Source: Chthoniobacterales bacterium (GTDB lineage Bacteria > Verrucomicrobiota > Verrucomicrobiia > Chthoniobacterales > Terrimicrobiaceae). Taken from it: a DNA stretch of 51,169 bases. Shown here piece after piece: positions 10,746 through 26,246 of this stretch. A program made the position numbers and the translations under genes. Location of the stretch: NCBI GenBank assembly GCA_014879575.1, contig JACSRU010000124.1, positions 1-51,169 on the forward strand, read 5' to 3'. Positions within the stretch are counted from its first letter, which is position 1. Every line of letters begins with the position of its first letter. The notes below the pieces were generated by a model that was given only the letters and a program-made list of their open reading frames with translations, searched no databases and had not been told where the DNA came from.

Positions 10746-11752
10746 CAGACAGCACAGCCGAGCAACCTTCGCCAGGCCAAACTTCTCAACAAATTTTGGA
10801 AGAAATTCTGAAAGCCGAGAAAGAAGGGACATTTGAAAAATCGCCCGAGCCTCCGCGGAGGCTGCCGACGATCACTGACCATCTCGTCGCGTTCATCGAT
10901 ATTCTCGGCTTCAGCAACAAGATCATCGCCGCAAAGACCGACGCGGACTTGAAAGAAATCTACGAGGAGGTGAGGACGGTGCAGCGCGAACTCGAAAAAC
11001 CCTCTGCCGTTGAAGATCCGTTCGAGCAAGAAGACGTGAATCTGGATCACGGGAAGAAGGTGATCGCTCTCTCCGACGGCGTCGTGGTGGCTATCACTTC
11101 AGACTGCAAAGCCGGTCCGGTGATGACCCCATACGACCTCTTCATGCTGGAGATTTGGACCATCATCATCGCCCAAGCGCGATGTGTGTGTCGCGGTATC
11201 TTCCTTCGCGGCGGGATCGGGCGTGGAACGTTCTTTTTCGAGGACGACATCCTGCTTAGTCCGCCGCTCGTTACCGCTTATCGGCTTGAAACCAACTGCG
11301 CCGTGTATCCAGTGATCGTGGTGGAAGCGGAGACCGTGGACTTCCTATTTAATCAAAAAGGACGTTCTCGATATAAAGGCAACGCCGACCCGTCTCTGAA
11401 ATATTTCCGACCATTCACGTCTCCAAAGTATCCCGATGCCAAGCTCTACATGCTCGACTACCTCCCAGTGACGCGTGACGAAGATCACGGCTGGATTTTC
11501 CGGGAGGACTACGACGAATATCGAAAGGCGAGTGGTGAAGAAAAAAGTGCAGTGCTCTACCGTCGCGACGTGAAAAATGCCGCTTGGTTTTTAGGGCATC
11601 ACAAAAAAGCGGTGCTCGACGCGTATCAGGCGGCAGACCGACCAGAGGTAAAGGAAAAATACACCTGGCTGATGAACTACCACAACGAATGCGTCCCTGA
11701 CTACGATCCGATCTTCGAGCAGCACCGAATCGAAATCCCAGTGGAAGCATGA
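10742..11752 (+). CDS. Nucleotidyl-cyclase-fold protein embedded in the RM operon (336 aa)
   Basis: After a disordered 40-residue head the protein shows a pattern like class III nucleotidyl cyclases. AFIDILGFSNK (about 50-60) matches the FxDIxGFT strand with metal-binding Asp53. IALSDGVVVAI (108-118) matches the second metal Asp112. RGGIGRGTFFFEDDILLSPPL (156-176) then AYRLE (179-183) resembles the glycine-rich strand and the VNxAARL helix. A C-terminal 130 residues of unknown type follow. Both metal aspartates are kept, so it could make a cyclic nucleotide, as PycC does in Pycsar defence, or be a non-catalytic relative. No Pycsar-like effector is obvious next to it unless the TrlF-like gene fills that role. 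It is coupled by ATGA overlaps on both sides. Confidence 0.55.
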   Translation: MTDSTAEQPSPGQTSQQILEEILKAEKEGTFEKSPEPPRRLPTITDHLVAFIDILGFSNKIIAAKTDADLKEIYEEVRTVQRELEKPSAVEDPFEQEDVNLDHGKKVIALSDGVVVAITSDCKAGPVMTPYDLFMLEIWTIIIAQARCVCRGIFLRGGIGRGTFFFEDDILLSPPLVTAYRLETNCAVYPVIVVEAETVDFLFNQKGRSRYKGNADPSLKYFRPFTSPKYPDAKLYMLDYLPVTRDEDHGWIFREDYDEYRKASGEEKSAVLYRRDVKNAAWFLGHHKKAVLDAYQAADRPEVKEKYTWLMNYHNECVPDYDPIFEQHRIEIPVEA

Positions 11753-14484
11753 GCACATACCCAAGAGGATCAGAATGGCGATTGTGGGACCTACATATCC
11801 ACACACCGGCTTCCTACAATTTCAATGGTCAGCGATTCGTCACCATGACGGCGGCGGAAAAAAGTGCAGCGATCTCGCAAATCATCACCAATATCAACGA
11901 AAGCGAGGTAGCCGCCTACGCCATCAACGACTACTGGACTTTCGACGGGTATCTCGCACTTAGAAGTGCGCATGAAGCCGGTGAAACCATTCAGAAGACA
12001 CTATTCCCGGCTATCGAGCTTCGCATCGAATCGGCATCCGAGGCTCGACTGAACATCCATGTGCTCTTCTCCGATAAACTGACCGTTCAACAGCTTCAGG
12101 ACTTCAAAAGTCACCTAAAGCTAAAGGTGATAGACCGCTCACTTTCCGACGAAGCAATTCGGGATTTCGCCGGAGAACTCGATGGAGCAAAAGCCAAAAT
12201 CCATGGGGCGCCGGACGGATACAAAGACGACCCAGCCGAACTCTTTCTGCTTGGCGCCAAGACGGCAGAAATAACCCAAGCCTCACTCAAGGCTGCTCTC
12301 GAGTGTATTCCCAGAGACCGCCGGTTGGTGATGGTTCCATACGACTCCTATGGCGGCATGGATGAGATCGAATGGGAAAGCCAGCCCGCAGAAAATCTAT
12401 ATTTCATGCGTCTCGTAGACGTCGTGGAGACTCGAAAGCAAAAAAACATCGATTTGTTTGCCTGCCGGAAGACGGAGGCTAACAAAGCGTTTATCGAAAA
12501 CTTCCAAAAAACGATTGGTGGCCGAGCCAAACCCTGCGTCTCCGGCAGCGACGGCCACTCAATCGCTGCTTTTAAAGATTGGCGTGAGGAGACAAAGACC
12601 CGGAAAACATGGATTAAGGCGGACCCAACATTCGAAGGTCTGAGGCAGATTCTCTTTGAACCCACGGCACGAGTCCGTGTGCAAGAGACGAGCCCCAGTT
12701 TGGACTACACAAAGCCATATCTGAGTTCGATTTCCATCGCACAGGAATTCTCCCCTTTTCCCAGCGACCAAAGCTACGAAAACCCTCGCTTTGGCCAAAA
12801 TCCAAAACTCGAATTGAATAGCGATCTCGCCTGCGTGATCGGGGGGCGAGGGACTGGAAAAAGCTGCTTGGTGGACTACCACGGCAAGGCATTCGGCACG
12901 GCGTCGAAATCCTCGTCCTACACTCCCAGCGAACACTTCGTCGTTGTCTTCAACAAAGACAGCACAAGCACTTCGACGCACCATGCAAAAGAGGGGGCCG
13001 AACTCCCCTTCGTTTACATCTCGCAAAATGAGGTAAAAGCAAAGGTTACGGCGGGCACGGTGGGCGACGAGATCAAGCAAATGCTCGGCGTCCGAGGCCT
13101 CTCCTTCGATAGAGATGTCGACTCTAAAATTCGAGACATCCTCTCCGAGGTCGAGAAACTCAAATCATGGTTCAAACAAACAGATGAAAAGGGCGAGGTG
13201 ATTTACCTTCGTCCAAAAATCGAAGATCAGATCACCCGATACAAAAGCCTGCTCGACTCCATCACAACGGAGCAGAACAAGGAAAAGCTGGAACGCTTCA
13301 CACTCAATGTCTCACGAGCAGCTGGAAACAGGGAGAAGGTTGCTCGCATGAACGAACTGAAAGAAGAGCTTACAAAGTTCAAAACTACATTTGACCCGAA
13401 GGCGTACGGTATCGACAAAACAATTCCGCCATTGGACGTTAAGCGCCAACTGGACGTCATCGACCACCTCGTGGGAAGCGCGACCAAAGACATCACTGCT
13501 TGCGAGGAAGACAATGCAAAGATTCGAGCCGACTTCTCCCGTGTTTATACTGGCGACCTCTCGGGGCTTTTGCAAAACGCCGAGGCATACCGCAGCGCCA
13601 TCGAGAAGCTGAAGTCGACCCTCACTACCATTCAGGCGAAGCAGGTAGAACTGGACGCCGCGTTGGGAAAAAAGGCGACCATCTCAACATTGATCGCAGC
13701 CGAAATAACGAGGCAAAAAGAAGCTATCGATGCCCGATGGCAGGTCATTCAGCAAGGGCAGGCCGATTGGACGCCGGAGCAAAAAGAGCTGATGAAGCGA
13801 ATTCTTGCGGATCGAAAAATCAACCTCGAAGGCCGTATCATTTTCGATCAGGCACGATTCCTCGAAAAGCTGAAGGAGGTTCTTAATCTCAGATCGTTTC
13901 GGACAACTTCTGAAAAAACCACGAACGAACGCATCAAAGAGTCCTTCAAGATAACCGACGCGACATCGTTTCTAGAATATATGTCGGAACGATTGAGCCA
14001 AGCTGAGGACGCGGAATATGTCTCTGGTGACATCGCATCCCTGTTCTACGACGTCGCACAACGCTCAACATTTCTCCGAGTCGAACCCGTGATTTCGTAT
14101 GGGGGACGTCCTCTCGAACGTTTGTCAGTTGGACAGAAGGGCACGGTTTATCTGTGTTTAAAACTGGCAACTCAGGCGTTCACTCAACCGCTGATCTTCG
14201 ACCAACCGGAAGACGACCTCGACAACGAGTTTATCATCGAGGAATTGGTCGAGATTTTCCGAGGTATCAAACAGTTCCGTCAGGTCATACTTGTGACCCA
14301 CAACGCCAACCTCGTTGTCAACGCGGACGCGGAGCAGGTCATCGTCGCAGAGAACGACAGCGGAGTGCTCAAATACAGCTCCGGAAGTCTTGAGGCGGAG
14401 GTAACGAACAAGGCAGTTCGCCGAATTTTGGAAGGCGGTGACGACGCCTTCCGGAAACGTGAACTTCGCTACAACCTCAAATAG
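11749..14484 (+). CDS. TrlF-like protein: PHP phosphoesterase domain fused to an SMC/ABC-type ATPase
   Basis: 911 aa. The N-terminal PHP domain has WDLHIHTPAS (His16, His18) and later SGSDGHS, both metal-ligand motifs of PHP phosphoesterases. An ATPase follows, with Walker A GGRGTGKSC (about 364-372) and a long charged coiled-coil middle (about 460-700). Its ABC-like signature is LSVGQKGT (about 790), with Walker B LIFDQPEDDLDNE and switch ILVTHNANL near 847. This arrangement is that of the TrlF family, found in defence islands and often beside restriction genes. Likely activity is ATP-driven DNA or RNA sensing linked to a nuclease or phosphoesterase; this is inferred. It is coupled to the cyclase-like gene by ATGA at 11749. 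Confidence 0.85.
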   Translation: MSTYPRGSEWRLWDLHIHTPASYNFNGQRFVTMTAAEKSAAISQIITNINESEVAAYAINDYWTFDGYLALRSAHEAGETIQKTLFPAIELRIESASEARLNIHVLFSDKLTVQQLQDFKSHLKLKVIDRSLSDEAIRDFAGELDGAKAKIHGAPDGYKDDPAELFLLGAKTAEITQASLKAALECIPRDRRLVMVPYDSYGGMDEIEWESQPAENLYFMRLVDVVETRKQKNIDLFACRKTEANKAFIENFQKTIGGRAKPCVSGSDGHSIAAFKDWREETKTRKTWIKADPTFEGLRQILFEPTARVRVQETSPSLDYTKPYLSSISIAQEFSPFPSDQSYENPRFGQNPKLELNSDLACVIGGRGTGKSCLVDYHGKAFGTASKSSSYTPSEHFVVVFNKDSTSTSTHHAKEGAELPFVYISQNEVKAKVTAGTVGDEIKQMLGVRGLSFDRDVDSKIRDILSEVEKLKSWFKQTDEKGEVIYLRPKIEDQITRYKSLLDSITTEQNKEKLERFTLNVSRAAGNREKVARMNELKEELTKFKTTFDPKAYGIDKTIPPLDVKRQLDVIDHLVGSATKDITACEEDNAKIRADFSRVYTGDLSGLLQNAEAYRSAIEKLKSTLTTIQAKQVELDAALGKKATISTLIAAEITRQKEAIDARWQVIQQGQADWTPEQKELMKRILADRKINLEGRIIFDQARFLEKLKEVLNLRSFRTTSEKTTNERIKESFKITDATSFLEYMSERLSQAEDAEYVSGDIASLFYDVAQRSTFLRVEPVISYGGRPLERLSVGQKGTVYLCLKLATQAFTQPLIFDQPEDDLDNEFIIEELVEIFRGIKQFRQVILVTHNANLVVNADAEQVIVAENDSGVLKYSSGSLEAEVTNKAVRRILEGGDDAFRKRELRYNLK

Positions 14485-14550: not shown

Positions 14551-15374
14551 AAAAGGTTAAGTATCTTCCCAGTTCCCTGGATGCAGTAGAACACCTTCGA
14601 TACGACGTAGACGCGATGAGCATCAAGTTCTACACGTTGCCTGACGCTCCGACCGGAATCTTTCATCCTAAATATTCAGAAAAATGTTACACCTTCGCTG
14701 CCGGAATTTCCGGCGACGGCGCAAACGACTATCTAGTCCTCATGGCCTTGAGGCCCGATTGGGAAACTACGGGTGACGGCAAGGTGCTCGACATCGACAC
14801 TGCCGCATTCTGCTTCAAAGCAGATGACACCTCGGCTGCTCCAAGCGGGATTGCACTCTTTCATCAGTCCTTCGACGGGCGCACAACGCCACTAGTCGAC
14901 TATGAAGCCTTCACTCTCGAAGAAACAGTCAACGACCTTCACAGCAAACTCATGCCGGGTAGCCTGCCTCTTTCGGCATCGCCTCCCATCTACATCAACG
15001 CGATGGCTCACAGCATTGCAAAGTTCAATGAACTGCTTAATCCTGAAATTTCGGTTTGGAAGGATTCCTTTTCAAAGCCAGACGAAACCTTCGATGCACT
15101 GTGGGCCTACTGTTCCGACAATGGCAGAGTAATTCCTAAAGACTGGAAAAGACTCTACGAGATGCTTGCCAACAAACGACAAAGCCCATCGGGAGGATGG
15201 GTCCCTTCATTGCCGCTAATCTTGGCGGCATGGGACACCGCTACCCCAATCGAAAAACAGATGCGTTTTAAGGAACATGTCGAATGGGCAGGCCACAATA
15301 GTCAAATTGATGAGATCGGACACTACCTTCGGTCCCTGTCCGAAGAAGATTGGTATCACTACGGCGAACTGTAA
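14547..15374 (+). CDS. Unknown 275-aa protein between trlF-like gene and hsdR
   Basis: A soluble protein with no signal or membrane segment. Its N-terminal half looks beta-rich (IKFYTLPDAPTGIF, CYTFAAGIS, DYLVLMALRPDW, and AFCFKADD with a following IALFHQSFDG). The C-terminal half is helical (FDALWAYCSDNGRVIPKDWKRLYEML). I do not recognise a family and see no catalytic motif. The start is fixed by the overlap with the mini-ORF stop, and the stop TAA lies one base before the hsdR start. Being inside the operon suggests a partner of the RM or TrlF-like proteins, perhaps an immunity or sensor protein; this is only context. Confidence 0.7.
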   Translation: MKKVKYLPSSLDAVEHLRYDVDAMSIKFYTLPDAPTGIFHPKYSEKCYTFAAGISGDGANDYLVLMALRPDWETTGDGKVLDIDTAAFCFKADDTSAAPSGIALFHQSFDGRTTPLVDYEAFTLEETVNDLHSKLMPGSLPLSASPPIYINAMAHSIAKFNELLNPEISVWKDSFSKPDETFDALWAYCSDNGRVIPKDWKRLYEMLANKRQSPSGGWVPSLPLILAAWDTATPIEKQMRFKEHVEWAGHNSQIDEIGHYLRSLSEEDWYHYGEL

Positions 15375-15375
15375 C

Positions 15376-18300
15376 ATGAGAACATCCGACACCACCGAGA
15401 AAGGCCTCGAAACTCTGATCATGAGCCACATGACCGGCACGAGCGGCCTTTCCTCGGGAACGCCGGGCACTGTGGCGGAAACCGCGCCCCTGACCAACGG
15501 CAGCGGCTGGTTTGCAGGCCAAGCCGCGTCGTATGATCGCGAGTTCGCGGTGGATGAAGAGCAACTCATTGCCTTCCTCCAGGCAACCCAACCGGAGGCG
15601 ACGGCCAAGCTCGGCATCGGCGACTACAAAGACAAAAAGAACATCACCCGCCAGAAATTCCTCGCCCGACTGCAAGGGGAGATTTCGAGGCGCGGCACGA
15701 TTGACGTGCTGCGGCACGGCATCAAGCACGGGGCATTGAGTTTTGATCTATTTTACGGCACGCCCTCGCCGGAGAACACCAAGGCGGTGCAGCGGCACGC
15801 GGCGAACCGGTTTAGCGTCACGCGCCAACTTGCCTACAGTCGCGAGGAGACCAAGCGGGCACTGGACCTGTGCGCGTTCATCAACGGGCTGCCGGTGATG
15901 ACCTTCGAATTGAAAAACAGCCTCACCAAACAGACGGTCGAGGATGCCATCGAGCAATACAAACGCGACCGCGACCCACGCGAGAAGCTCTTCGAGTTTG
16001 GCCGCTGCGTGGTGCATTTCGCGGTGGACGACGCAAAGGTCGCCATGTGCACGGCTCTCAAGGGCACGAAGGGCATGGCCAAGGAGTCGTGGTTCCTGCC
16101 ATTTGACCAAGGCTGGAACGACGGGGCCGGCAACCCGCCGAACCCGGACGGGCTGAAGACGGATTACCTGTGGAAACGCATCCTCACCCCGGAGGGACTC
16201 ACGGATATTCTGGAAAACTACGCGCAGATCGTGGAGGAGGAGAACCCCAAGACGGGGAAAAAGAAGCAGGTCCAAATTTTCCCGCGCTATCACCAACTCG
16301 ACGTGGTGCGGAAACTTCTCGCCGACGTGCGTGAGACCGGCGCAGGCCAACGTTACCTCATCCAGCATTCAGCGGGCAGCGGCAAGTCGAACTCCATCGC
16401 ACGGCTGGCCCATCAGCTCATCAGCGCACGGAAGGACGGCAAGGAAGTGTTCGACTCGATCATCGTCGTCACCGACCGGCGCATCCTCGATAAACAAATC
16501 CGCGAGACGATCAAGGGCTTTGCCCAGGTCGGCAGCATCATCGGCGCGGTGAAGGAGGGCGCGGGCGTGTCGAAGACGGAGCAGCTCTCGAAGTTCCTCA
16601 AGGACGGGAAGAAGATCATCATTTCCACGGTGCAAACCTTCCCCTTCGTGCTCGACAGCATCGGCGCGGAACATCGCGGCGGAAACTTCGCCATCATCAT
16701 CGACGAGGCGCACAGCAGCCAGGGCGGACGCACGGCGGCGGCCATCAGCGCGGCGCTGGGCGAGACCGCCGAATCCGAGGAGGAGACGAGCGAGGACAAA
16801 ATCAACCGCATCATCGGGCAACGGAAAATGCTGCCCAACGCCAGCTACTTCGCATTCACCGCCACACCGAAGAACAAGACGCTGGAAATGTTCGGCATCG
16901 CCTACCCGGAGGGAGGCGAGGTGAAACACCGGCCCTTTCACGGCTACACAATGAAACAGGCCATTCAGGAGGGTTTCATTCTCGATGTGCTGAAACGTTA
17001 CACGCCCGTGGACAGCTACTATCGGCTCGCCAAAACTGTCGAAGGTGACCCCGAGTATGACGTAAAGAAGGCCCGTAAAAAACTGCGCCTCTATGTCGAG
17101 AGCCATAGCAAGGCCATCCGCGACAAAGCGGAAATCATGGTGGACCATTTCCTCGAACAGGTCATCGGCCAAAACAAGATCGGCGGACAGGCGCGGGCGA
17201 TGGTCGTCACCGGCAGTATTCAACGGGCCATAGAGTATTGGGTGGCCTTCACTGCCTACCTCAAAGAAATCAAAAGCCCCTACCAGGCCATCGTCGCCTT
17301 TTCCGGTGAGCCGGAATACAAGGGCGAGAAGGTCAGCGAGGCGAAGCTGAACGGATTTTCGAGCAACGACATCGCGGACAAGATTCAGGAAGACCCGTAT
17401 CGATTTCTCATCTGTGCCGATAAATTCCAGACCGGCTACGACGAACCCCTGCTGCACACGATGTATGTGGACAAGGCGCTCAGCGGCATCAAAGCCGTTC
17501 AGACGCTCTCCCGCCTGAACCGGGCGCACCCGAAAAAACACGACGTGTTCGTCCTCGATTTTCAGAACGACACCGAGACCATCGAGAAATCCTTCGCCGA
17601 CTACTACCGCACCACGATCCTCAGCAAGGAAACGGACGCCAACAAACTCCACACCCTCAAGGATGAACTGGACGGGTATCAGGTCTATTCGCCGGAGCAG
17701 GTGAACGAATTCGTGAAGCTCTACCTCGACGGGCAAATTGTGGACAAGGTTCATCCCATCCTCGACGCCTGCGTGGCCGTCTATGTAAACGACCTGGACG
17801 AGGACAAGCAGGTGGATTTCAAGGGCAAGGCCAAAGCCTTCGCCCGCACCTATGACTTCCTCGCGACCATCCTGCCGTATGGCGTGCAGGAGTGGGAAAA
17901 ACTTTCGATCTTCCTGAATTTCCTCATCCCGAAGCTGCCCGCGCCCAAGGAGGAAGACCTTGCTAAAGGAATCCTCGAAGCCATCGACATGGATAGCTAC
18001 CGCGCCGAAAAAAAGGCGACGCTGGCCATCGCATTGCCGGATACCGACGCCGAGATCGAACCCGTGCCAACGTCCGGCGGCGGACGTAAGCCCGAACCCG
18101 AGTTGGACAAGCTCTCGAACATCATCAAGGCATTCAACGACCAGTTCGGCGGTCTGTTCAACGACCCTAACGCCGTGGAAAAGCGCATCATCGAAGTGAT
18201 CCCGCCCAAGGTGTCAGCCGACCCGGCCTATCAGAACGCCAGACAAAATTCCGACCGGCAGAACGCCCGTATCGAACACGACAAGGCGCTCAAACGCGTA

Positions 18301-18411
18301 ATCACGGCCATGTTCAAAGACGACGCGCAGCTCTTCAAACAATTCCAAGACAACGACTCCTTCCGGCGCTGGCTGACAGACACGATTTTCGGAATTACCT
18401 ACGAGGAATAA
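15376..18411 (+). CDS. hsdR: Type I restriction endonuclease subunit HsdR
   Basis: The start ATG at 15376 gives MRTSDTTEKGLETLI; reading back to 15277 would overlap the previous gene. The 1011-aa protein has the N-terminal HsdR nuclease fold with LDLCAFINGLPVMTFELKN (about 157-180; PD-(D/E)xK pattern D..ExK). The SF2 translocase follows: Walker A HSAGSGKSNS (about 331), DEAH box IIIDEAHSS (about 440), motif III FAFTATPK, and motif VI QTLSRLNRAHP (about 708-718). A helical C-terminal region that docks on HsdM completes it. It pumps DNA and cuts unmodified phage DNA at a distance. No frameshift or missing motif is seen, so the RM system appears functional. It is the last gene of the coupled operon. 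Confidence 0.96.
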   Translation: MRTSDTTEKGLETLIMSHMTGTSGLSSGTPGTVAETAPLTNGSGWFAGQAASYDREFAVDEEQLIAFLQATQPEATAKLGIGDYKDKKNITRQKFLARLQGEISRRGTIDVLRHGIKHGALSFDLFYGTPSPENTKAVQRHAANRFSVTRQLAYSREETKRALDLCAFINGLPVMTFELKNSLTKQTVEDAIEQYKRDRDPREKLFEFGRCVVHFAVDDAKVAMCTALKGTKGMAKESWFLPFDQGWNDGAGNPPNPDGLKTDYLWKRILTPEGLTDILENYAQIVEEENPKTGKKKQVQIFPRYHQLDVVRKLLADVRETGAGQRYLIQHSAGSGKSNSIARLAHQLISARKDGKEVFDSIIVVTDRRILDKQIRETIKGFAQVGSIIGAVKEGAGVSKTEQLSKFLKDGKKIIISTVQTFPFVLDSIGAEHRGGNFAIIIDEAHSSQGGRTAAAISAALGETAESEEETSEDKINRIIGQRKMLPNASYFAFTATPKNKTLEMFGIAYPEGGEVKHRPFHGYTMKQAIQEGFILDVLKRYTPVDSYYRLAKTVEGDPEYDVKKARKKLRLYVESHSKAIRDKAEIMVDHFLEQVIGQNKIGGQARAMVVTGSIQRAIEYWVAFTAYLKEIKSPYQAIVAFSGEPEYKGEKVSEAKLNGFSSNDIADKIQEDPYRFLICADKFQTGYDEPLLHTMYVDKALSGIKAVQTLSRLNRAHPKKHDVFVLDFQNDTETIEKSFADYYRTTILSKETDANKLHTLKDELDGYQVYSPEQVNEFVKLYLDGQIVDKVHPILDACVAVYVNDLDEDKQVDFKGKAKAFARTYDFLATILPYGVQEWEKLSIFLNFLIPKLPAPKEEDLAKGILEAIDMDSYRAEKKATLAIALPDTDAEIEPVPTSGGGRKPEPELDKLSNIIKAFNDQFGGLFNDPNAVEKRIIEVIPPKVSADPAYQNARQNSDRQNARIEHDKALKRVITAMFKDDAQLFKQFQDNDSFRRWLTDTIFGITYEE

Positions 18412-18468: not shown

Positions 18469-18816
18469 ATGAACAATACCGCGTTCGGTTCCTATCTCCG
18501 CCAGATTAGGGAGGAAAAAGACATCTCATTGAGAGAACTCGCCAAAAGGATTGGTGTATCCGGAGCATTCCTGTCCGACATCGAACTCGGTCGCCGATTC
18601 CCATCGGCAGACAAAATCGAACTCCTTGCCAAAGAAATCGGTATCCCCGTGGAGGATTTGCAAAAATACGATTTCCGCGACGAGGCGGAGGAAATAAGAA
18701 AAATGATGTTCTCCGACCCCCAAGCCGGAATGGCCTTCAGAACCCTCAAGACCAAAATCCAAGGCGGTACTTCGATCGATAAAATTCGAGAACACCTCGA
18801 CGAAGACATCAAATGA
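18469..18816 (+). CDS. XRE-family helix-turn-helix regulator (115 aa)
   Basis: Residues about 6-62 form a Cro/C1-type helix-turn-helix (FGSYLRQIREEKDISLRELAKRIGVSGAFLSDIELGRRFPS, with SGAFLSDIELG as recognition helix region). The C-terminal 45 residues are charged and helical. The stop overlaps the start of the ImmA/IrrE gene (ATGA at 18813). In such pairs the metallopeptidase typically cleaves or inactivates the repressor after a stress signal. It is placed between the RM operon and the CBASS genes, so it probably controls its own operon and perhaps the phospholipase gene downstream (see the palindrome). Confidence 0.9.
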   Translation: MNNTAFGSYLRQIREEKDISLRELAKRIGVSGAFLSDIELGRRFPSADKIELLAKEIGIPVEDLQKYDFRDEAEEIRKMMFSDPQAGMAFRTLKTKIQGGTSIDKIREHLDEDIK

Positions 18817-19517
18817 AGGAGTTCCACACCAAGGACGGACCGTATCCCCTCCGGCTGCTCTACGAGACACGGGAGATCGATGACATCTGCTTGGACGCGC
18901 TGAAGCAGTCCAAGCTCCTCCCAAGCGAGCCCGAGCCAATTAAGATCGACCTCTTCCTCGAAAAATACTTCGAGGTCCCGTTGATCTACGAGGACTTGGG
19001 GGAGGGAATCATGGGATCGACGGTGTTCAACTCAAAGGGAGCCGTAACCGGATTCACCATCGCACCATGGATCGAGGAAGAAGGAACCGCCGCCGCTGAA
19101 CGTCGGGTGAGATCAACATTGGCGCACGAAGGGGGACACGGCCTCCTCCACCCGAAACTTTTCATCGCTGACCAAACCGCCGACCTTTTCAACCACTCTT
19201 CCGGGAACCACTGCCCCCGGAATTTTTTATGTCGCAGCACCGACATTTCCCCAAGTCCCGGTGCTACCCCAAAATACGATGGGCGGTGGTGGGAATGGCA
19301 GGCGAACCGAGCCATCGGCGGCCTCCTCCTTCCGCGTCCGACCGTAAGAAAGCTAGTCACCCCATACCTAGAGGAGTCCACCTTCGGACAGCGTCTCAGG
19401 GAAACCCAAAGATCCAAAGTCGAAAAAGAGGTCGCCGAGACCTTTGACGTGAACCCAGTCGTCGCCCGAATCCGGCTGGAAGAAATGTTTCCAACGGAAA
19501 AGCACCCTTCCTTGTAA
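18813..19517 (+). CDS. ImmA/IrrE-family zinc metallopeptidase (234 aa)
   Basis: STLAHEGGHGLLH contains the HExxH zinc site (His105, Glu106, His109), in the position usual for ImmA/IrrE proteins. A candidate third ligand lies downstream in the WWEWQANRAIGGLLLP segment (Glu then Ala-Asn as in ExxAN). The C-terminal helices (ETFDVNPVVARIRLEE) match the family's ending. Relatives cut the repressor encoded next to them, lifting repression. Its ATG overlaps the XRE stop, so the two are translated together. Between HEGGH and the WWEW segment lies a roughly 45-residue insert with three Cys (NHCPRNFLCRSTDI), not standard in short ImmA proteins. Confidence 0.88.
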   Translation: MKEFHTKDGPYPLRLLYETREIDDICLDALKQSKLLPSEPEPIKIDLFLEKYFEVPLIYEDLGEGIMGSTVFNSKGAVTGFTIAPWIEEEGTAAAERRVRSTLAHEGGHGLLHPKLFIADQTADLFNHSSGNHCPRNFLCRSTDISPSPGATPKYDGRWWEWQANRAIGGLLLPRPTVRKLVTPYLEESTFGQRLRETQRSKVEKEVAETFDVNPVVARIRLEEMFPTEKHPSL

Positions 19518-19518
19518 A

Positions 19519-19561
19519 ATATCGTTGACTGTAAGCTGTCGAAGCTTACAGTCAACGATAT
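19519..19561. promoter_or_regulatory. Perfect palindrome, 19-bp arms, covering the capV start codon
   Basis: ATATCGTTGACTGTAAGCT (19519-19537) and its exact reverse complement (19543-19561) flank a 5-base spacer GTCGA. The right arm contains the first two bases of the patatin start codon at 19560, and no ribosome-binding site lies between arm and start. As DNA it is a strong candidate operator; as RNA it would hide the start codon. TGTAAAAT (19513-19520), an extended -10-like element, touches its left edge, so transcription could begin within the left arm and leave the message nearly leaderless. Confidence 0.75.
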
Positions 19562-20504
19562 GCAAGGCAACCGATTTCAAATTCTATCTCTGGACGGCGG
19601 TGGGCTGAAGGGGCTCTTTACCGCGTCCTTTCTGGCCCATTGGGAAAAAGAACGAGGGACAAGGGTCATCGACCATTTCGACCTGATCTCTGGCACCAGC
19701 ACTGGCGGAATCATCGCCATCGGCCTCGGCCTCGGCTTCTCAGCCGAACAGATTAAAGACCTCTACCTCAACAAGGCGGACCAAATCTTTCCGCCTAAGC
19801 ACTTCGCCAACGCCAAACACTGGCTGGCGGTCAAGCATTCGGGTGCCGGTCTGCGGGCGGCACTCCAGGAGCTGCTCGGCGAACGAAAGTTCGGCGAAAG
19901 TGAAAAACGACTCCTCATTCCCGCCTACGACCCTGCCTTCCGCGGGGTCCACATCTTCAAAACGTCGCACCACAAACGCCTGCAGACCGACTACAAGCAA
20001 AGCGCCGTTCATGTCGCGATGGCAACCAGTGCCGCCCCGACCTACCTTCCCCCCGAGGTCACCGAGTCCGGCCTGCAACTCCTTGACGGCGGCGTCTGGG
20101 CGAACAATCCCATCATGATTGCGGTGGCCGAAGCGTTGGGATACCTCGAAAAACCCCAGAGCGAGATCACCGCGCTCCGCATAGGCACCACCGAGGAAGT
20201 CATCTCTCTAAAGGATCTCCAGACCATGGGAGGAAAGTTGCAAATGGCGGCTCCAGTCATCGACTTCATGATGAGAGGCCAGTCGCAGTCGGCTTCTGGG
20301 ATGGTGCAACACCTTCTCGGAAAAGACCGCTTTTTCGAGGTGAACCCCAAAACCGCCCCGGGAGATTTCCACCTCGATAAACTCAGCAAGGAACTCCTCG
20401 CTATGGGCGAGGCCGAATGGCGTCACGCCTCCTCCGAACTCTTTGACCGGGGATTCTTCGATCATCAGGCGGCTCCCTTCGAGCCCTGTCACAAACTCAA
20501 CTAA
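19560..20504 (+). CDS. capV: CBASS effector CapV-like patatin phospholipase (314 aa)
   Basis: The patatin fold is clear. The oxyanion motif DGGGLKG (12-18), nucleophile elbow GTSTGG with Ser47, and the catalytic Asp in LLDGGVW (about residue 175) are all present. CapV enzymes are switched on by a cyclic dinucleotide made by the CD-NTase and degrade the inner membrane, killing the infected cell. It directly precedes a CD-NTase gene on the same strand (29-bp gap), which is the usual CBASS order. The start at 19560 is the only ATG before the DGGGLKG motif, but it lies in a perfect palindrome without a Shine-Dalgarno sequence, so expression may be specially controlled. The catalytic set is complete. 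Confidence 0.93.
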   Translation: MQGNRFQILSLDGGGLKGLFTASFLAHWEKERGTRVIDHFDLISGTSTGGIIAIGLGLGFSAEQIKDLYLNKADQIFPPKHFANAKHWLAVKHSGAGLRAALQELLGERKFGESEKRLLIPAYDPAFRGVHIFKTSHHKRLQTDYKQSAVHVAMATSAAPTYLPPEVTESGLQLLDGGVWANNPIMIAVAEALGYLEKPQSEITALRIGTTEEVISLKDLQTMGGKLQMAAPVIDFMMRGQSQSASGMVQHLLGKDRFFEVNPKTAPGDFHLDKLSKELLAMGEAEWRHASSELFDRGFFDHQAAPFEPCHKLN

Positions 20505-20533: not shown

Positions 20534-21724
20534 ATGAAGACGAAAGATCAGATCATCGAGGCCCTCGTGGCCGCTTTGGAAATTCCACCCAGTGCCTACG
20601 ACAAGGCCCACGACCGATACAAGGACTTGGGCGACTGGTTCTGCGAAGGTTCGCTGAAAGCCAACAAGCCAAGAATTTACGCCCAGGGGTCCTTCCGCCT
20701 CGGGACTGTCATCCGCCCCCTTCACGATGGCGAATCCTACGACCTGGATGTCGGCTGCCGTCTTGAGGCTGGCATCAGCAAGCACACCCATACTCAGGAG
20801 AATTTGAAGACGCTCGTCGGTGACGAACTCGAAGCCTACCGGAAGGCCCGGCAAATCAAGAAGGAGCTCGAAGAAAAGCACCGTTGCTGGTGCCTCGAAT
20901 ATGCGGACGAACTCCGGTTCTCGGAGGACATCGTTCCCTCCATTCCCGAGGAAATGACCAAGCAGGCCTCACTCGCTGAGGCGATGGTCAAACATGGCCT
21001 CGCTCGTGGGCTCGCCGAAAACGTGTCTCACCACTCCGGGAATATCACCGACAATCGTCAGGCCAACTACCGCTACATCGATCCCGACTGGCGAATCTCC
21101 AACTCAGAAGGCTATGCCAAGTGGTTTGAATCCCGCATGGAAATCGCAACCGGGCTCGTGGAGAAAGTCGCCATGATGGCGAAGCAGGCCAAAGTGGAAA
21201 AACTCCCCGCTTGGAAATGGAAAACGCCACTTCAAAAAGTCATCCAACTTTTGAAGCGGCACCGGGATTCGATGTTCGCCAAGAACCCCGACTCCAAACC
21301 CATTTCCATCATCATCACGACACTGGCGGCTGCTGCCTACCGGGGTGAGGACAACACCACCTCAGCGCTGGAGCGCATCCTTGCCGACATGGATCGCTAC
21401 ATCCTTCCGACAATCCCCCGTGTCCCCAATCCAGTGAACCCAAATGAAGACTTCGCGGACAAATGGCACGAGCCGAAATACGCCCACCTCAACTTGGAAG
21501 GAAACTTCCACGGTTGGCTCAAGCAGGCCCGAGCAGACTTCCAGAACACCGAAAAACTCAACACAGAAGAACTGATACAAAAGTTCACCGTTCAAAAGTT
21601 TGGGCTGCGTATTCCACAGGACTTGAGAGAACCGTTTTTTGATTTACGCGGCCAAGCGCAGGCCCTCGGCACGATCAAGATCGAGACGATGGGAGAGGAA
21701 TTTCGCGAGGTCACAGGTATTTGA
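20534..21724 (+). CDS. CBASS CD-NTase (cGAS/DncV-like), C-terminus replaced by IS sequence
   Basis: The nucleotidyltransferase signature is IYAQGSFRLGTVIRP (Gly52-Ser53), with YDLDVG giving metal ligands Asp70 and Asp72 and SEDIVPSIPE (about 130-139) the third acidic strand. WRISNSEGYAKWFESR and the helical C-lobe follow. It would make the cyclic oligonucleotide that activates CapV. Residues 1-363 are native. From 21622 the frame runs into the insertion sequence, and the last 33 residues (LREPF...VTGI) are IS-encoded. The original ending, 32 residues closing in KPARPWCM, lies at 23484-23583. The catalytic core is intact, but the tail, which in type II CBASS is the conjugation point, is lost. 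Activity is therefore uncertain. Confidence 0.9.
   Translation: MKTKDQIIEALVAALEIPPSAYDKAHDRYKDLGDWFCEGSLKANKPRIYAQGSFRLGTVIRPLHDGESYDLDVGCRLEAGISKHTHTQENLKTLVGDELEAYRKARQIKKELEEKHRCWCLEYADELRFSEDIVPSIPEEMTKQASLAEAMVKHGLARGLAENVSHHSGNITDNRQANYRYIDPDWRISNSEGYAKWFESRMEIATGLVEKVAMMAKQAKVEKLPAWKWKTPLQKVIQLLKRHRDSMFAKNPDSKPISIIITTLAAAAYRGEDNTTSALERILADMDRYILPTIPRVPNPVNPNEDFADKWHEPKYAHLNLEGNFHGWLKQARADFQNTEKLNTEELIQKFTVQKFGLRIPQDLREPFFDLRGQAQALGTIKIETMGEEFREVTGI
21615..21621. repeat. Target-site duplication, left copy (CACAGGA)
   Basis: CACAGGA stands directly left of the insertion sequence and again directly right of it at 23477-23483. Because the next base is C on both sides, an 8-bp duplication (CACAGGAC) is equally possible, with the element shifted by one base. 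Confidence 0.93.
21622..21638 (+). repeat. IS terminal inverted repeat, left
   Basis: CTTGAGAGAACCGTTTT, exact reverse complement of 23460-23476. It starts immediately after the duplicated CACAGGA, and identity stops at the 18th base. Confidence 0.95.
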
Positions 21725-23047
21725 GCCATCGAAGAGAAATTCGGGGAGACAATGACGCAGGGCCATGGCAACGATTTGTTCGGAAGGGGGAATTCCCGGT
21801 CGGATGGTGCGGATCCAAGAGCCGAAGTGACTCCAAACGAGTCGCGGATGAAGGACGGAAAGGATCTGGAGCAGACCTTGAGCGATGACGCCGGTTTGGA
21901 GATGACAATGGTAGGCGCGGATTTTGCGTCGGACCTGCTGGCGATAGAGATCGCTTTTGTGGTGGAGATGCTGGTTGCCGGAACGCCGGGAAATGGGCGA
22001 CATGGCCTTCATCCAAAAATGATACCGATAAGTGCCGACGGTATGGACGGCTTGTTTGAAGGAGACTTCGATTTTGAAGCGCGCGCCATAAAGGGAGATG
22101 ATCTCCAGCGGGTGGAGGGAGAGGTCGGTGGAGAGAAAAACCCTGCAACCTCGGTGCGGATGGATGACGGCGACGAAGCGTACGAGGCAACCGACGGGAC
22201 GCCAGAGCAGGTCAATGCTGCGATAGGCGAGATCCACCCCGTTTTCCCCATAGACAGGACTGGGTGCCTTGGTGAAAGCCTCAGTGTCCTTAAATAAGGT
22301 GTTGAGGCGAATCTTGGAACCGTAGCAGCGCGGGCGCCCACGTCGGCGCTTGTCTGGTGAAGGGGCCGGTTCATAAGCCACGGCACTGGATTTGAGGGCG
22401 GTGACAAGGTGGTTGCCGCCGCGCAGGAGCGGGAGAATGATTTTTGCGGTGGCGTAGTAGGCGTCGCCAACCAGAATGCAGGGCCGTGCCACACCGAGTT
22501 CCTTGAAAAGGAGGATGAGTTTGTCCATGAGGGTGCGCTTGTCGCGGTTGGTAAAGACGACTCCCTCATGGATGCGGCAAGCCAGAGGCAGGGCGAAGAA
22601 GCTCTCTGCCGCCTTAACCACGACAGCGAGGGCCTGGCAGGAGTGCCCGAAGATGTATTCGGGCTTGGAGTTATTTTGCGACTCCTGGTGGAGCTTCTTG
22701 ACCGCCGGCATTTTGCGTCCGGCTTTGGGAGCTTTGATGCCGTCGGCAAGCAGGACGATGCGTCCGTTGACGGTGAGCAGAAGGGGGTCCAAGACGCGGA
22801 GAACCAGACACGTCCATAGGGAAGTGAGCCGGGAGAGGTCAACGGCCGGACTGTGGAAGAAATCCAAGATCCTGTCGTAGAAGGAGTGCTGGAGTCCGAG
22901 TGCCCGCACGAAACTTGTGACGCCCCGCAAATCCTCGCGCACGCAGAAGGCCGCGAGCGCGGCGGAAAACCAGAGAAATGTGCGGGTGCGGCCAAACGCG
23001 GGGCGAAGGGAACAAACGAGGTTCCACCAGGTGATCCAAAGGGTCAT
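21644..23047 (-). CDS. DDE-type IS transposase (467 aa)
   Basis: The start at 23047 (MTLWITWWNLVCSL) is chosen because the longer reading to 23251 would run through the divergent DUF6788 gene. Candidate catalytic acids are the first Asp in VLLADGIKAPKAGRK, the second in ILVGDAYYATAKII, and the Glu in LYGARFKIEVSFKQA, with a Y-x2-R-x3-E arrangement as in IS4/IS701-type enzymes. A basic stretch (PDKRRRGRPRCYGSK) lies between the second and third. The stop is 22 bp inside the left end of the element, so the frame is complete and unbroken. It is antisense to the IS-encoded tail of the CD-NTase. Confidence 0.9.
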   Translation of the reverse strand: MTLWITWWNLVCSLRPAFGRTRTFLWFSAALAAFCVREDLRGVTSFVRALGLQHSFYDRILDFFHSPAVDLSRLTSLWTCLVLRVLDPLLLTVNGRIVLLADGIKAPKAGRKMPAVKKLHQESQNNSKPEYIFGHSCQALAVVVKAAESFFALPLACRIHEGVVFTNRDKRTLMDKLILLFKELGVARPCILVGDAYYATAKIILPLLRGGNHLVTALKSSAVAYEPAPSPDKRRRGRPRCYGSKIRLNTLFKDTEAFTKAPSPVYGENGVDLAYRSIDLLWRPVGCLVRFVAVIHPHRGCRVFLSTDLSLHPLEIISLYGARFKIEVSFKQAVHTVGTYRYHFWMKAMSPISRRSGNQHLHHKSDLYRQQVRRKIRAYHCHLQTGVIAQGLLQILSVLHPRLVWSHFGSWIRTIRPGIPPSEQIVAMALRHCLPEFLFDGSNTCDLAKFLSHRLDLDRAEGLRLAA

Positions 23048-23084
23048 GAGAAGAATTTTTGAATTGTGAAATATTTTTGTTGAC

Positions 23085-23106
23085 AGGTAGCATTTATATG
23101 CTACCT
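23085..23106. promoter_or_regulatory. 9-bp palindrome between the divergent IS genes
   Basis: AGGTAGCAT (23085-23093), loop TTAT, and ATGCTACCT (23098-23106) form a perfect palindrome. TTGACA (23080-23085) at its left edge is a consensus -35 box reading toward the DUF6788 gene, although a good -10 at normal spacing is not clear. It may be the operator shared by both IS promoters. Confidence 0.5.
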
Positions 23107-23132
23107 TATTAGCGCGAAAAAGCAACAAAATC

Positions 23133-23447
23133 ATGTCAAAAAAAATCACCCAACTGCAGGCACGCATCGAACGGATCAAACAAGAGCTGATGGTGCTCGG
23201 CCCCATGCGCCCGGGAAGCCTCAGCCGCCAATACCGGGACCCGGAAACCAAAGGGCGGGCGTTCCACCAGATCAGCTATACGCACAAGGGGCGCGGACGC
23301 TCGGAATATGTCCGCCCGGAAAACCTCGCGCAGATCCGCCGCGAAACGGCCAACTTCAGGCGATTCCGCAAGCTGACAGAGCAGTGGGTGGACTTATCGC
23401 TGAAGGCGTCGCAACTACGCGCAAAAAATGGCGAGACTCCGAATTGA
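23133..23447 (+). CDS. IS-borne DUF6788-type small protein (104 aa)
   Basis: The sequence opens with a basic coiled coil (MSKKITQLQARIERIKQELM), then the segment MRPGSLSRQYRDPETKGRAFHQIS followed by SEYVRPENLAQIRRETANF and a second helix. This matches small proteins (DUF6788) repeatedly seen beside transposases in Verrucomicrobia and Planctomycetes. The function is unknown; DNA binding or transposase regulation is plausible because it is short, basic and divergently transcribed from the transposase. It ends 29 bp inside the right IS end. Its transcript could run on into the CBASS E2 gene. Confidence 0.75.
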   Translation: MSKKITQLQARIERIKQELMVLGPMRPGSLSRQYRDPETKGRAFHQISYTHKGRGRSEYVRPENLAQIRRETANFRRFRKLTEQWVDLSLKASQLRAKNGETPN

Positions 23448-23459
23448 TGCGTGCCGGAG

Positions 23460-23476
23460 AAAACGGTTCTCTCAAG
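23460..23476 (-). repeat. IS terminal inverted repeat, right
   Basis: AAAACGGTTCTCTCAAG, exact reverse complement of the left end at 21622-21638. It is followed at once by the second CACAGGA copy. Confidence 0.95.
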
Positions 23477-23483
23477 CACAGGA
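23477..23483. repeat. Target-site duplication, right copy (CACAGGA)
   Basis: Second copy of the 7-bp target sequence. It continues into the detached 3' end of the CD-NTase gene in the original reading frame (CAG-GAC-GAA). Confidence 0.93.
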
Positions 23484-23583
23484 CGAAATCGCCAAAATTC
23501 TCCCGCTCCTATCGTCCAAACCCGCAGACTACCAGAACATCCAGATCATTACTGAAAAACCAGCTCGTCCATGGTGTATGTGA
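23484..23583 (+). pseudogene. Detached 3' end of the CD-NTase gene (32 codons plus stop)
   Basis: Joining 20534-21621 to 23484-23583 keeps the frame: ...IPQD-EIAKILPLLSSKPADYQ... through IITEKPARPWCM and TGA, 395 residues in all. The TGA (23581-23583) overlaps the ATG of the E2 gene (TGATG), so the two genes were translationally coupled before insertion. A chance ATG at 23428, inside the DUF6788 gene, opens a 51-codon frame that could still translate this tail and re-initiate at the E2 gene. Confidence 0.92.
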
Positions 23584-24236
23584 TGCCCTATGCAGTCGCC
23601 ATTCCGGGGCTGGACGAGTTCCTTAACGATCAGCCATTCATCTCGATTCAGCCATCGAACGGAAATCCCCTTCTCTTGGAAGGGGATTTTCAGTTTTGCG
23701 CCGAGCATGAGGGACACCCCCGAATCAACGACACCTACAATCTTCAAATCTCCATTCCCCGAGACTTCCCCCGTCGAACTCCAACGGTCACCGAGATAGG
23801 CGGCAGAATTCCCCGCGTGGATGATTTTCACGTAAATGGCAACGGAACCCTGTGCCTCGGCTCACGAATTCGACTCATGGCTCGGCTACAGGCAGAACCG
23901 ACCATCCAAGGGTTCAGCAAAAACTGCATCGTTCCCTACCTGTATGCGATGAGCCTAAAGCTCACACACGGCCAGGATTTTATCTTTGGTGAGCTCCGTC
24001 ATGGCGTCCACGGTGAACTCGACGACTACAAAGAACTCCTCGGCCTCAAGCGTAATGACCGGGTCGTTCCAGCCCTCCTTTGCCTGCTCAAAAAAAAGCG
24101 CCTCGCCAATAAAATGCCCTGTCCTTGCGGCTGCAAAAAGAGACTGGGAAAGTGCGATCTCAACGTCACCGTCAGAAAGTTTCGATCCATTCTACCAAAA
24201 GCCTGGCTCCGCGAAGTCGTCACCGGAAAACGGTGA
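23583..24236 (+). CDS. E2-like (ubiquitin-conjugating fold) CBASS protein (217 aa)
   Basis: The start at 23583 is fixed by the TGATG overlap with the original CD-NTase stop. The core reads NLQISIPRDFPRRTPTV, then FHVNGNGTLCLGS with catalytic Cys91 and His83 upstream, the pattern of bacterial E2 proteins (YxLxIxxPxxYPxxxP, then H...GxLCL). Type II-short CBASS operons carry an E2 without E1 or JAB and link it to the CD-NTase C-terminus. The C-terminal third adds a Cys cluster, MPCPCGCKKRLGKC (about 180-193), like a small zinc-binding motif. With the CD-NTase tail removed by the IS its normal partner is missing. Confidence 0.85.
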   Translation: MPYAVAIPGLDEFLNDQPFISIQPSNGNPLLLEGDFQFCAEHEGHPRINDTYNLQISIPRDFPRRTPTVTEIGGRIPRVDDFHVNGNGTLCLGSRIRLMARLQAEPTIQGFSKNCIVPYLYAMSLKLTHGQDFIFGELRHGVHGELDDYKELLGLKRNDRVVPALLCLLKKKRLANKMPCPCGCKKRLGKCDLNVTVRKFRSILPKAWLREVVTGKR

Positions 24237-25757: not shown

Positions 25758-26246
25758 ATGACAAAATTTTCGCCCCTCCCGCTCCGTGTCGTTATTAATC
25801 GTGTTGGCGAGCCGACGCCAGCCCAGTACAGCGCGTCACGAACTCCGGTGGATTCTGCCGAGGCCGCGTATCGGTTTTGGCTGGATGTCGTCGCGTCCGC
25901 GCCAGATTTCGAGCCAGAAAAGGAGCATCTTGTCGCCATCCTCCTTGATACCAAGCTTCGACCGATGGCATTTCATCTCGTATCAACGGGATCGCTTAAC
26001 GAGACCATAGCCCATCCACGGGAGATTTTTCGGCCCGCGATCATTCTCGCGGCATACGGCGTCATCTTGGCCCACAATCATCCCTCTGGAGATTCCGCTC
26101 CCAGCCAAGCCGATCATAGGATGACCCGCCAAATGTCCGAAGCGGCGCGGCTCTTGCAGATACAGTTGCTGGACCACGTGGTTACCGGCGACGCGGAAGG
26201 AGGACGGCAGCCCTATTTCAGTTTCCGGGAGGCAAGGTGCTTGTGA
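25758..26246 (+). CDS. RadC-type JAB/MPN domain protein (162 aa)
   Basis: The hallmark ILAHNHPSGDSAPSQAD (HxH followed by Asp at +11 from the first His) is the JAMM/MPN metal site as found in RadC. HLVAILLDTKLRPMAFHLVSTGSLNET before it, and HPREIFRPAI, are also typical. The protein is short, lacking the helix-hairpin-helix half of housekeeping RadC, like the JAB-only RadC proteins common on plasmids and genomic islands. Their function is unsettled (accessory to mobile DNA or anti-restriction has been suggested). It supports the island reading. It is not of the Cap3 type that removes CD-NTase conjugates. Confidence 0.88.
   Translation: MTKFSPLPLRVVINRVGEPTPAQYSASRTPVDSAEAAYRFWLDVVASAPDFEPEKEHLVAILLDTKLRPMAFHLVSTGSLNETIAHPREIFRPAIILAAYGVILAHNHPSGDSAPSQADHRMTRQMSEAARLLQIQLLDHVVTGDAEGGRQPYFSFREARCL

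Follow-up and report, generated by a model that had tools for sequence, protein, structure and literature searches.

What does a CBASS cyclase lose when a mobile element removes its C-terminal tail and leaves the E2 enzyme encoded beside it intact? The question is raised by positions 23484-24236 of the window (the whole stretch analysed, 51,169 nucleotides of a Chthoniobacterales contig, JACSRU010000124.1 of assembly GCA_014879575.1), which hold the stranded 3' end of a CD-NTase gene and the E2 gene that follows it. An earlier note, made from the sequence alone, had recognised this arrangement and its cause, an insertion sequence (IS), and had supposed that a working catalytic core was thereby freed from E2 control. 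The arrangement is borne out by perfect terminal repeats, a target duplication and three uninterrupted relatives (L004, L005 and L006); the supposed consequence is weighed below.

The interrupted operon

The operon lies on the forward strand in the order CapH-CapP-patatin-CD-NTase-E2, with the CD-NTase gene split by the insertion sequence. It opens with a CapH-like HTH regulator (18469-18816; PADLOC capH, 4.9e-12) and, overlapping it by 4 nt, a CapP-like metallopeptidase (18813-19517; PADLOC capP, 8.8e-07; Pfam Peptidase_M78, 0.0012, below cut-off). A CapV-type patatin phospholipase effector follows (19560-20504; Pfam Patatin, 4.1e-27; PADLOC Effector, 1.4e-99), and then the native part of the CD-NTase gene (20534-21621; PADLOC Cyclase, 3.3e-118; Pfam DncV-like NTFase, 1.1e-12), delimited by alignment with L004-L006. 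The catalytic motifs of the cyclase, QGS and D-x-D, are intact and an effector adjoins it, as type II-short CBASS requires, and the adjoining E2 stands alone and carries its catalytic cysteine. Among the operon ORFs scanned with Pfam and PADLOC at 18.4-24.2 kb there was neither an E1 nor a JAB isopeptidase, in agreement with the E2-only assignment of the earlier note. A RadC gene at 25758 was considered as the operon's JAB and rejected, since an AAA gene intervenes and its PADLOC JAB match was only 0.0037. By gene content, the window holds a broken member of type II-short (E2-only) CBASS and its close relatives hold intact ones; it is counted as broken because IS-encoded residues have replaced the CD-NTase tail, leaving no end for the E2. 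Upstream of the operon, a type I restriction R subunit (15277-18411) and an SMC/AAA-like protein (11749-14484) give a defence-island setting.

The CD-NTase gene is interrupted close to its 3' end by an IS701-like element. It spans 1,855 bp (21622-23476), is bounded by 17-nt inverted repeats (21622-21638 and 23460-23476, 100% complementary) and is flanked by a 7-bp target duplication, CACAGGA (21615-21621 and 23477-23483), present as a single copy in L004. The left junction reads TTCCACAGGA / CTTGAGAGAACCG and the right junction GGTTCTCTCAAG / CACAGGACGAAATC, with the slash at the border. A left border near 21717 had been considered from the sequence, and the repeats place it at 21622. Alignments of L004 (97% identical DNA), L005 and L006 cross the site with no insert. 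The element encodes, on the reverse strand, a DDE transposase whose closest type is IS701 (21644-23047; Pfam DDE_5, 1.3e-10; NCBIfam IS701_3, 4.3e-48), which scores 164 bits on the IS701_3 model against a cut-off of 170, with inverted repeats and target duplication present. On the forward strand it carries a DUF6788 passenger gene (23133-23447; Pfam DUF6788, 1.7e-11). Just upstream of this gene, at 23086-23105, a perfect palindrome seen by eye, GGTAGCAT-TTAT-ATGCTACC, could be an operator. For the DUF6788 transcript that the earlier note thought able to reach the E2 gene, no sigma-70-like promoter was found, and terminator-like sites were at chance level.

The present CD-NTase is a chimera, because its reading frame continues past the junction for 33 codons and a stop within the element (21622-21724, forward strand; LREPFF...REVTGI). 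Since L004-L006 read straight through the site, the window protein can be said to have kept 363 native residues (the last codon shared with the insert), gained 33 and lost 32. An annotation-level reading would place its native end at residue 396 and was set aside, the last 33 residues being element sequence. The 32 lost residues are those of a final short helix and of the disordered tail behind it, whose end is RPWCM. They persist as a stranded piece (23484-23583, forward strand) that reads, from 23479, QDEIAKILPLLSSKPADYQNIQIITEKPARPWCM followed by a stop; the end KPARPWCM, as the earlier note gave it, is common to the L004, L005 and L006 cyclases, and within the window this PW end is present only in the stranded piece. 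The start codon of the E2 gene overlaps the former CD-NTase stop by one base, an overlap preserved in L004-L006, and the element now puts about 1.9 kb between the E2 and its partner, as had been noted.

The E2 itself (23583-24236, forward strand; 217 aa) is intact and matches the PADLOC model PDLC00859 at 5.6e-80. Its catalytic residue, Cys91, correctly picked out in the earlier note, is invariant in 15/15 aligned long E2s, as are Cys180 and Cys191 of a zinc-knuckle-like C-terminal cluster in which Cys182 is nearly so. Sequence searches found no close solved relative, and comparison of the predicted fold gave weak matches only, the best of them 2.9e-3, to E2/UFC1 folds, which fits but does not prove a UBC fold. 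In genome scans with the window E2, the L004, L005 and L006 enzymes were 99%, 90% and 88% identical to it. A viral-contig scan with the E2 alignment and a search of phages yielded no E2 match, and further viral scans with cyclase alignments returned mostly contigs already found. The CD-NTase, the E2 and the IS have one match each in the window's own assembly, which is 97.7% complete and of a kind that can collapse repeats.

The relatives differ upstream. In L004 (242-1806) and L005 (138-1421) a DUF6791-ThiF (E1-like) gene precedes the patatin gene, with a DUF6527 gene between the two in L004. The window has CapH-CapP in its place and L006 has CapP, while cyclase, tail and E2 hardly differ among the four. 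DUF6791 was not found in the window's own genome, in a search whose positive controls, the genomes of L004 and L005, gave matches. Because this E1-like gene comes and goes beside a nearly identical cyclase, tail and E2, the E1 module may be an optional add-on for this E2-only CBASS; since L004 and L005 carry it within the operon, this E2 may in some cases depend on an E1.

Cyclase ends and adjoining partner enzymes

The insertion is ordinary; of more interest is the correspondence between cyclase tail and partner enzyme. CD-NTases were collected from plasmids (27 of the 66 records with a cyclase match, picked to spread over lineages), a phage record (1/1), viral contigs and genomes, and 51 proteins were counted after four weak matches (E about 4-6e-4) had been dropped. 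Partner class was set by the adjoining gene, using separate HMMs for long E2s, short E2s of about 150 aa and E1-E2 fusions. The window and four further loci (L032, L038, L041 and L065) were left out of the count; among these, L041, in which no E2 was found, ends in HRFFGGETAR, and L038, a cyclase in two frames beside a short E2, ends in NTYFGE. Three loci (L025, L026 and L037) were scored as having no E2 next door on that basis only, as E1-E2 or JAB genes lie upstream on their stretches.

Cyclases beside a long E2 ended in PW plus 2-5 residues in 17 of 18 cases (15 of 16 when the near copies L004-L006 are counted once), the exception being L064 with SW. This end, for which the earlier note had named the test beforehand, occurred in none of the other 33 cyclases, including the seven beside E1-E2 and the eight with no E2 next door. 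The note had made the absence of a conserved end its own refutation, and on this point the survey supports it; the cysteine next to the end, to which the note had drawn attention, is not the conserved feature: the residue after W may be C, K, G, F, V, S, Q, R, M or A. All 18 cyclases beside a short E2 ended in an NxFFG-like motif (e.g., NTFFG or HKFYG) plus 1-7 residues, as did 0/33 of the others, by a pattern fitted after the ends had been seen. Beside E1-E2, an exact G or A end was present in 5/7, and KPxGF[AG] ends were found. Searching all loci gathered for PW within the last eight residues of ORFs of at least 150 codons returned 38 of 817, every one of them a CD-NTase beside a long E2 (duplicates included). 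The long-E2/PW-tail group, a grouping made here, is defined by an E2 of about 210-260 aa that carries a Cys cluster at its C-terminal side, together with PW close to the end of the cyclase; the window E2 fits its half of this definition, and the window has PW in the stranded piece only.

Neither E2-only class has its motif at the extreme end of the protein: by eye, 2-5 residues follow W in 18/18 (the SW row included) and 1-7 follow G in 18/18. Because residues always remain behind the motif, these ends resemble a pro-tail and would fit the removal of a short peptide.

We also asked how often partner and tail had changed together. On a cyclase tree built without the tail columns, the long-E2 label changes at least five times on well-supported (starred) branches. 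Across five independent pairs, PW was concordant with the partner in 4.5 on average and opposed in none, which gives p = 0.0625 at best and is not significant alone; allowing unsupported branches raises the number of independent pairs to eight, and a first, smaller tree gave 3/3 concordant. A second, distant CD-NTase clade has KPWCA, KSWATEQ and NPWRSQ ends with long E2, HSFYG, HKFYG and HKFYG with short E2, and GGGRFG and GGGRYA with E1-E2. The correspondence between tail and partner is strong among the sequences surveyed, but the independent events behind it are few.

Three loci add observations of their own. On a Comamonas plasmid (L032, 2968-4392), a CD-NTase of the window cyclase's branch keeps KPVPWK near its end, inside a frame that runs on, and where the E2 would be expected there is a Tn3-family transposase gene. 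At L062 (4991-6764) the CD-NTase ends in PPKPWMKE and the long E2 is broken into several frames, a retained tail with a damaged E2 and so the reverse of the window. At L065 (2925-4284) a long E2 lies directly behind a ThsB-type TIR gene (Pfam, 5.3e-26) on a 4.9-kb contig with no CD-NTase, possibly an E2 outside CBASS.

Possible consequences of tail loss

Since the PW end goes with the long E2 in the survey, the insertion is judged to have taken away the part of the CD-NTase that tracks E2 type, and the window protein is probably a natural mutant of its E2 partner's attachment point. The reading we favour, at somewhat better than even chances, is that the IS has removed a PW-tail signal, so that the E2 would have no substrate and E2-dependent activation would fail; the catalytic core may nevertheless fold. 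In mechanistic terms, the E2 would recognise the PW end of the cyclase, cut off the short peptide behind it and hold the cyclase as a thioester for conjugation; cleavage of the peptide would allow the thioester to form without E1 and ATP. Without the tail, processing and conjugation of the cyclase by the E2 have most likely ceased, which would leave the system crippled. The functional precedents for loss of a tail or of E2 activity, as described in the available sections of two papers (PMC10097602, PMC11153139), speak for this reading, but both concern E1-E2 fusion systems, unlike that of the window.

A broader and more doubtful proposal extends this reading. The C-terminal end of the cyclase might be an address that matches the class of the adjoining enzyme and is exchanged with it across distant clades: PW-x2-5 for long E2, NxFFG-x1-7 for short E2 and G/A for E1-E2. 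Long E2s would then act free of E1, cutting behind PW and forming a thioester on the C-terminal Trp, and the window would hold an address-less allele that keeps its E2. If the tail is indeed an address read by E2 class, the final few residues of a cyclase could reveal its partner, and there would be two or more chemistries within E2-only CBASS.

The view taken in the earlier note, that the truncated CD-NTase keeps a working core which the E2 can neither hold nor switch any more, and signals basally or constitutively, seems unlikely to us as a whole. Several observations speak for it. The AlphaFold2 model of the intact L004 cyclase (mean pLDDT 86.7) is ordered to about residue 371, with a last helix at 361-370, and almost all of residues 374-394 fall below a pLDDT of 50; because the predicted fold is an ordered core with about 20 disordered residues at its end, a folded core in the absence of the tail is plausible, and the catalytic motifs are in place. 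The related Vibrio cholerae cyclase VcCdnG, a clade G enzyme with a long-E2-type end, made 3'2'-cGAMP with Mn2+ after purification, no E2 being listed in the assay legend among the available sections of the report (PMC12804361). This activity of a related cyclase by itself in vitro leaves a freed core some probability, and a further point in its favour is the proposal that, in Bacillus cereus, conjugation to PspA keeps the cyclase inactive (Kruger et al., PMC11153139, available sections). On the other hand, the insertion point maps to the start of the last helix in the L004 model, so that this helix is swapped for foreign residues that may destabilise the protein, and constitutive signalling alongside an intact phospholipase effector would be expected to be toxic. 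Freedom from E2 control is also made less likely by what happens in the type II CBASS systems compared here, where loss of the C-terminal residue, of the tail or of E2 activity lowers or abolishes conjugation or defence. In the available sections of the papers concerned, deletion of the C-terminal Gly of cGAS phenocopies Cap2 loss (Jenson et al., PMC10097602), and in B. cereus A331E, E2 C91R or loss of cap2 and cap3 abolishes immunity and tail deletion stops conjugation (Kruger et al., PMC11153139).

Less probable again is a decaying pseudogene, in which the chimeric protein would be unstable and the whole operon on its way out. An interrupted gene, an E2 now 1.9 kb from its partner and a lost start/stop overlap are what such decay would produce, but CapH, CapP, CapV, the cyclase core and the E2 are all open, and CapV, core and E2 have few non-synonymous changes on the window branch. 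Since the split from L004, this branch has acquired four synonymous and one non-synonymous codon change in the core, and two and one, respectively, in the E2. These changes give no sign of long decay, a point against the crippled system of the favoured reading as well, though a recent insertion, which this may simply be, would look identical. A misplaced insertion, or one present in part of the population only, is very improbable: the assembly has 178 contigs, but the marks that a real insertion leaves are all there, with the target duplication and the inverted repeats both perfect, exactly at the site and on a single unbroken contig.

The window supplies a natural tail-loss allele that can be compared with its intact near relatives L004-L006.

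Comparison with known type II systems

In the fused E1-E2 (Cap2) systems of E. coli TW11681 and B. cereus, conjugation takes place at the C-terminus of the cyclase. These systems encode a fused E1-E2 and a JAB isopeptidase, whereas the window operon has a lone E2 and neither of those genes. The B. cereus cyclase ends in KPGGFA, as given in the available sections of PMC11153139, and so resembles the KPxGF[AG] ends seen here beside E1-E2. According to the available part of Jenson et al. (PMC10097602), a C-terminal Gly/Ala is conserved in cyclases with Cap2 and Cap3, with no conservation in the other architectures compared there. Kruger et al. refer to a proposal that cyclase-cyclase conjugation activates a type II short system (PMC11153139, available sections), and a review of E1 enzymes describes, in its available sections, only the fused Cap2 among CBASS enzymes (PMC12355090). 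In open-licence papers we found no description of the PW end of CBASS cyclases, and a description of a lone E2 acting on a CBASS cyclase without E1 was found only for a short-E2 system.

That system, the Serratia marcescens CdnG with a single E2 (PDB 8hsb, 8yjy, 9kkb), is an E2-only CBASS like that of the window, and the model of the L004-type CD-NTase matches its cyclase chain 8hsb_A at 2.5e-15 (Foldseek). In SmCdnG, too, one residue or more lies beyond a short C-terminal signal, but the protein ends in NTFYGE, not in PW, and its E2 belongs to the short class (162 aa), the window E2 being longer and carrying a C-terminal Cys cluster. Processing and poly-conjugation are reported for this system, the subject of Yan et al. 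(2024).

Closer to the window is VcCdnG (PDB 9WOO), which shares its cyclase branch (phmmer, 2.7e-112). The available text of the paper on this enzyme contains no mention of Cap2 and no discussion of E2 or tail (PMC12804361). VcCdnG is intact, its match to the long-class profile (8.2e-166) reaches KPWFK at the end of the protein, and L009, a near relative of VcCdnG, adjoins a long E2.
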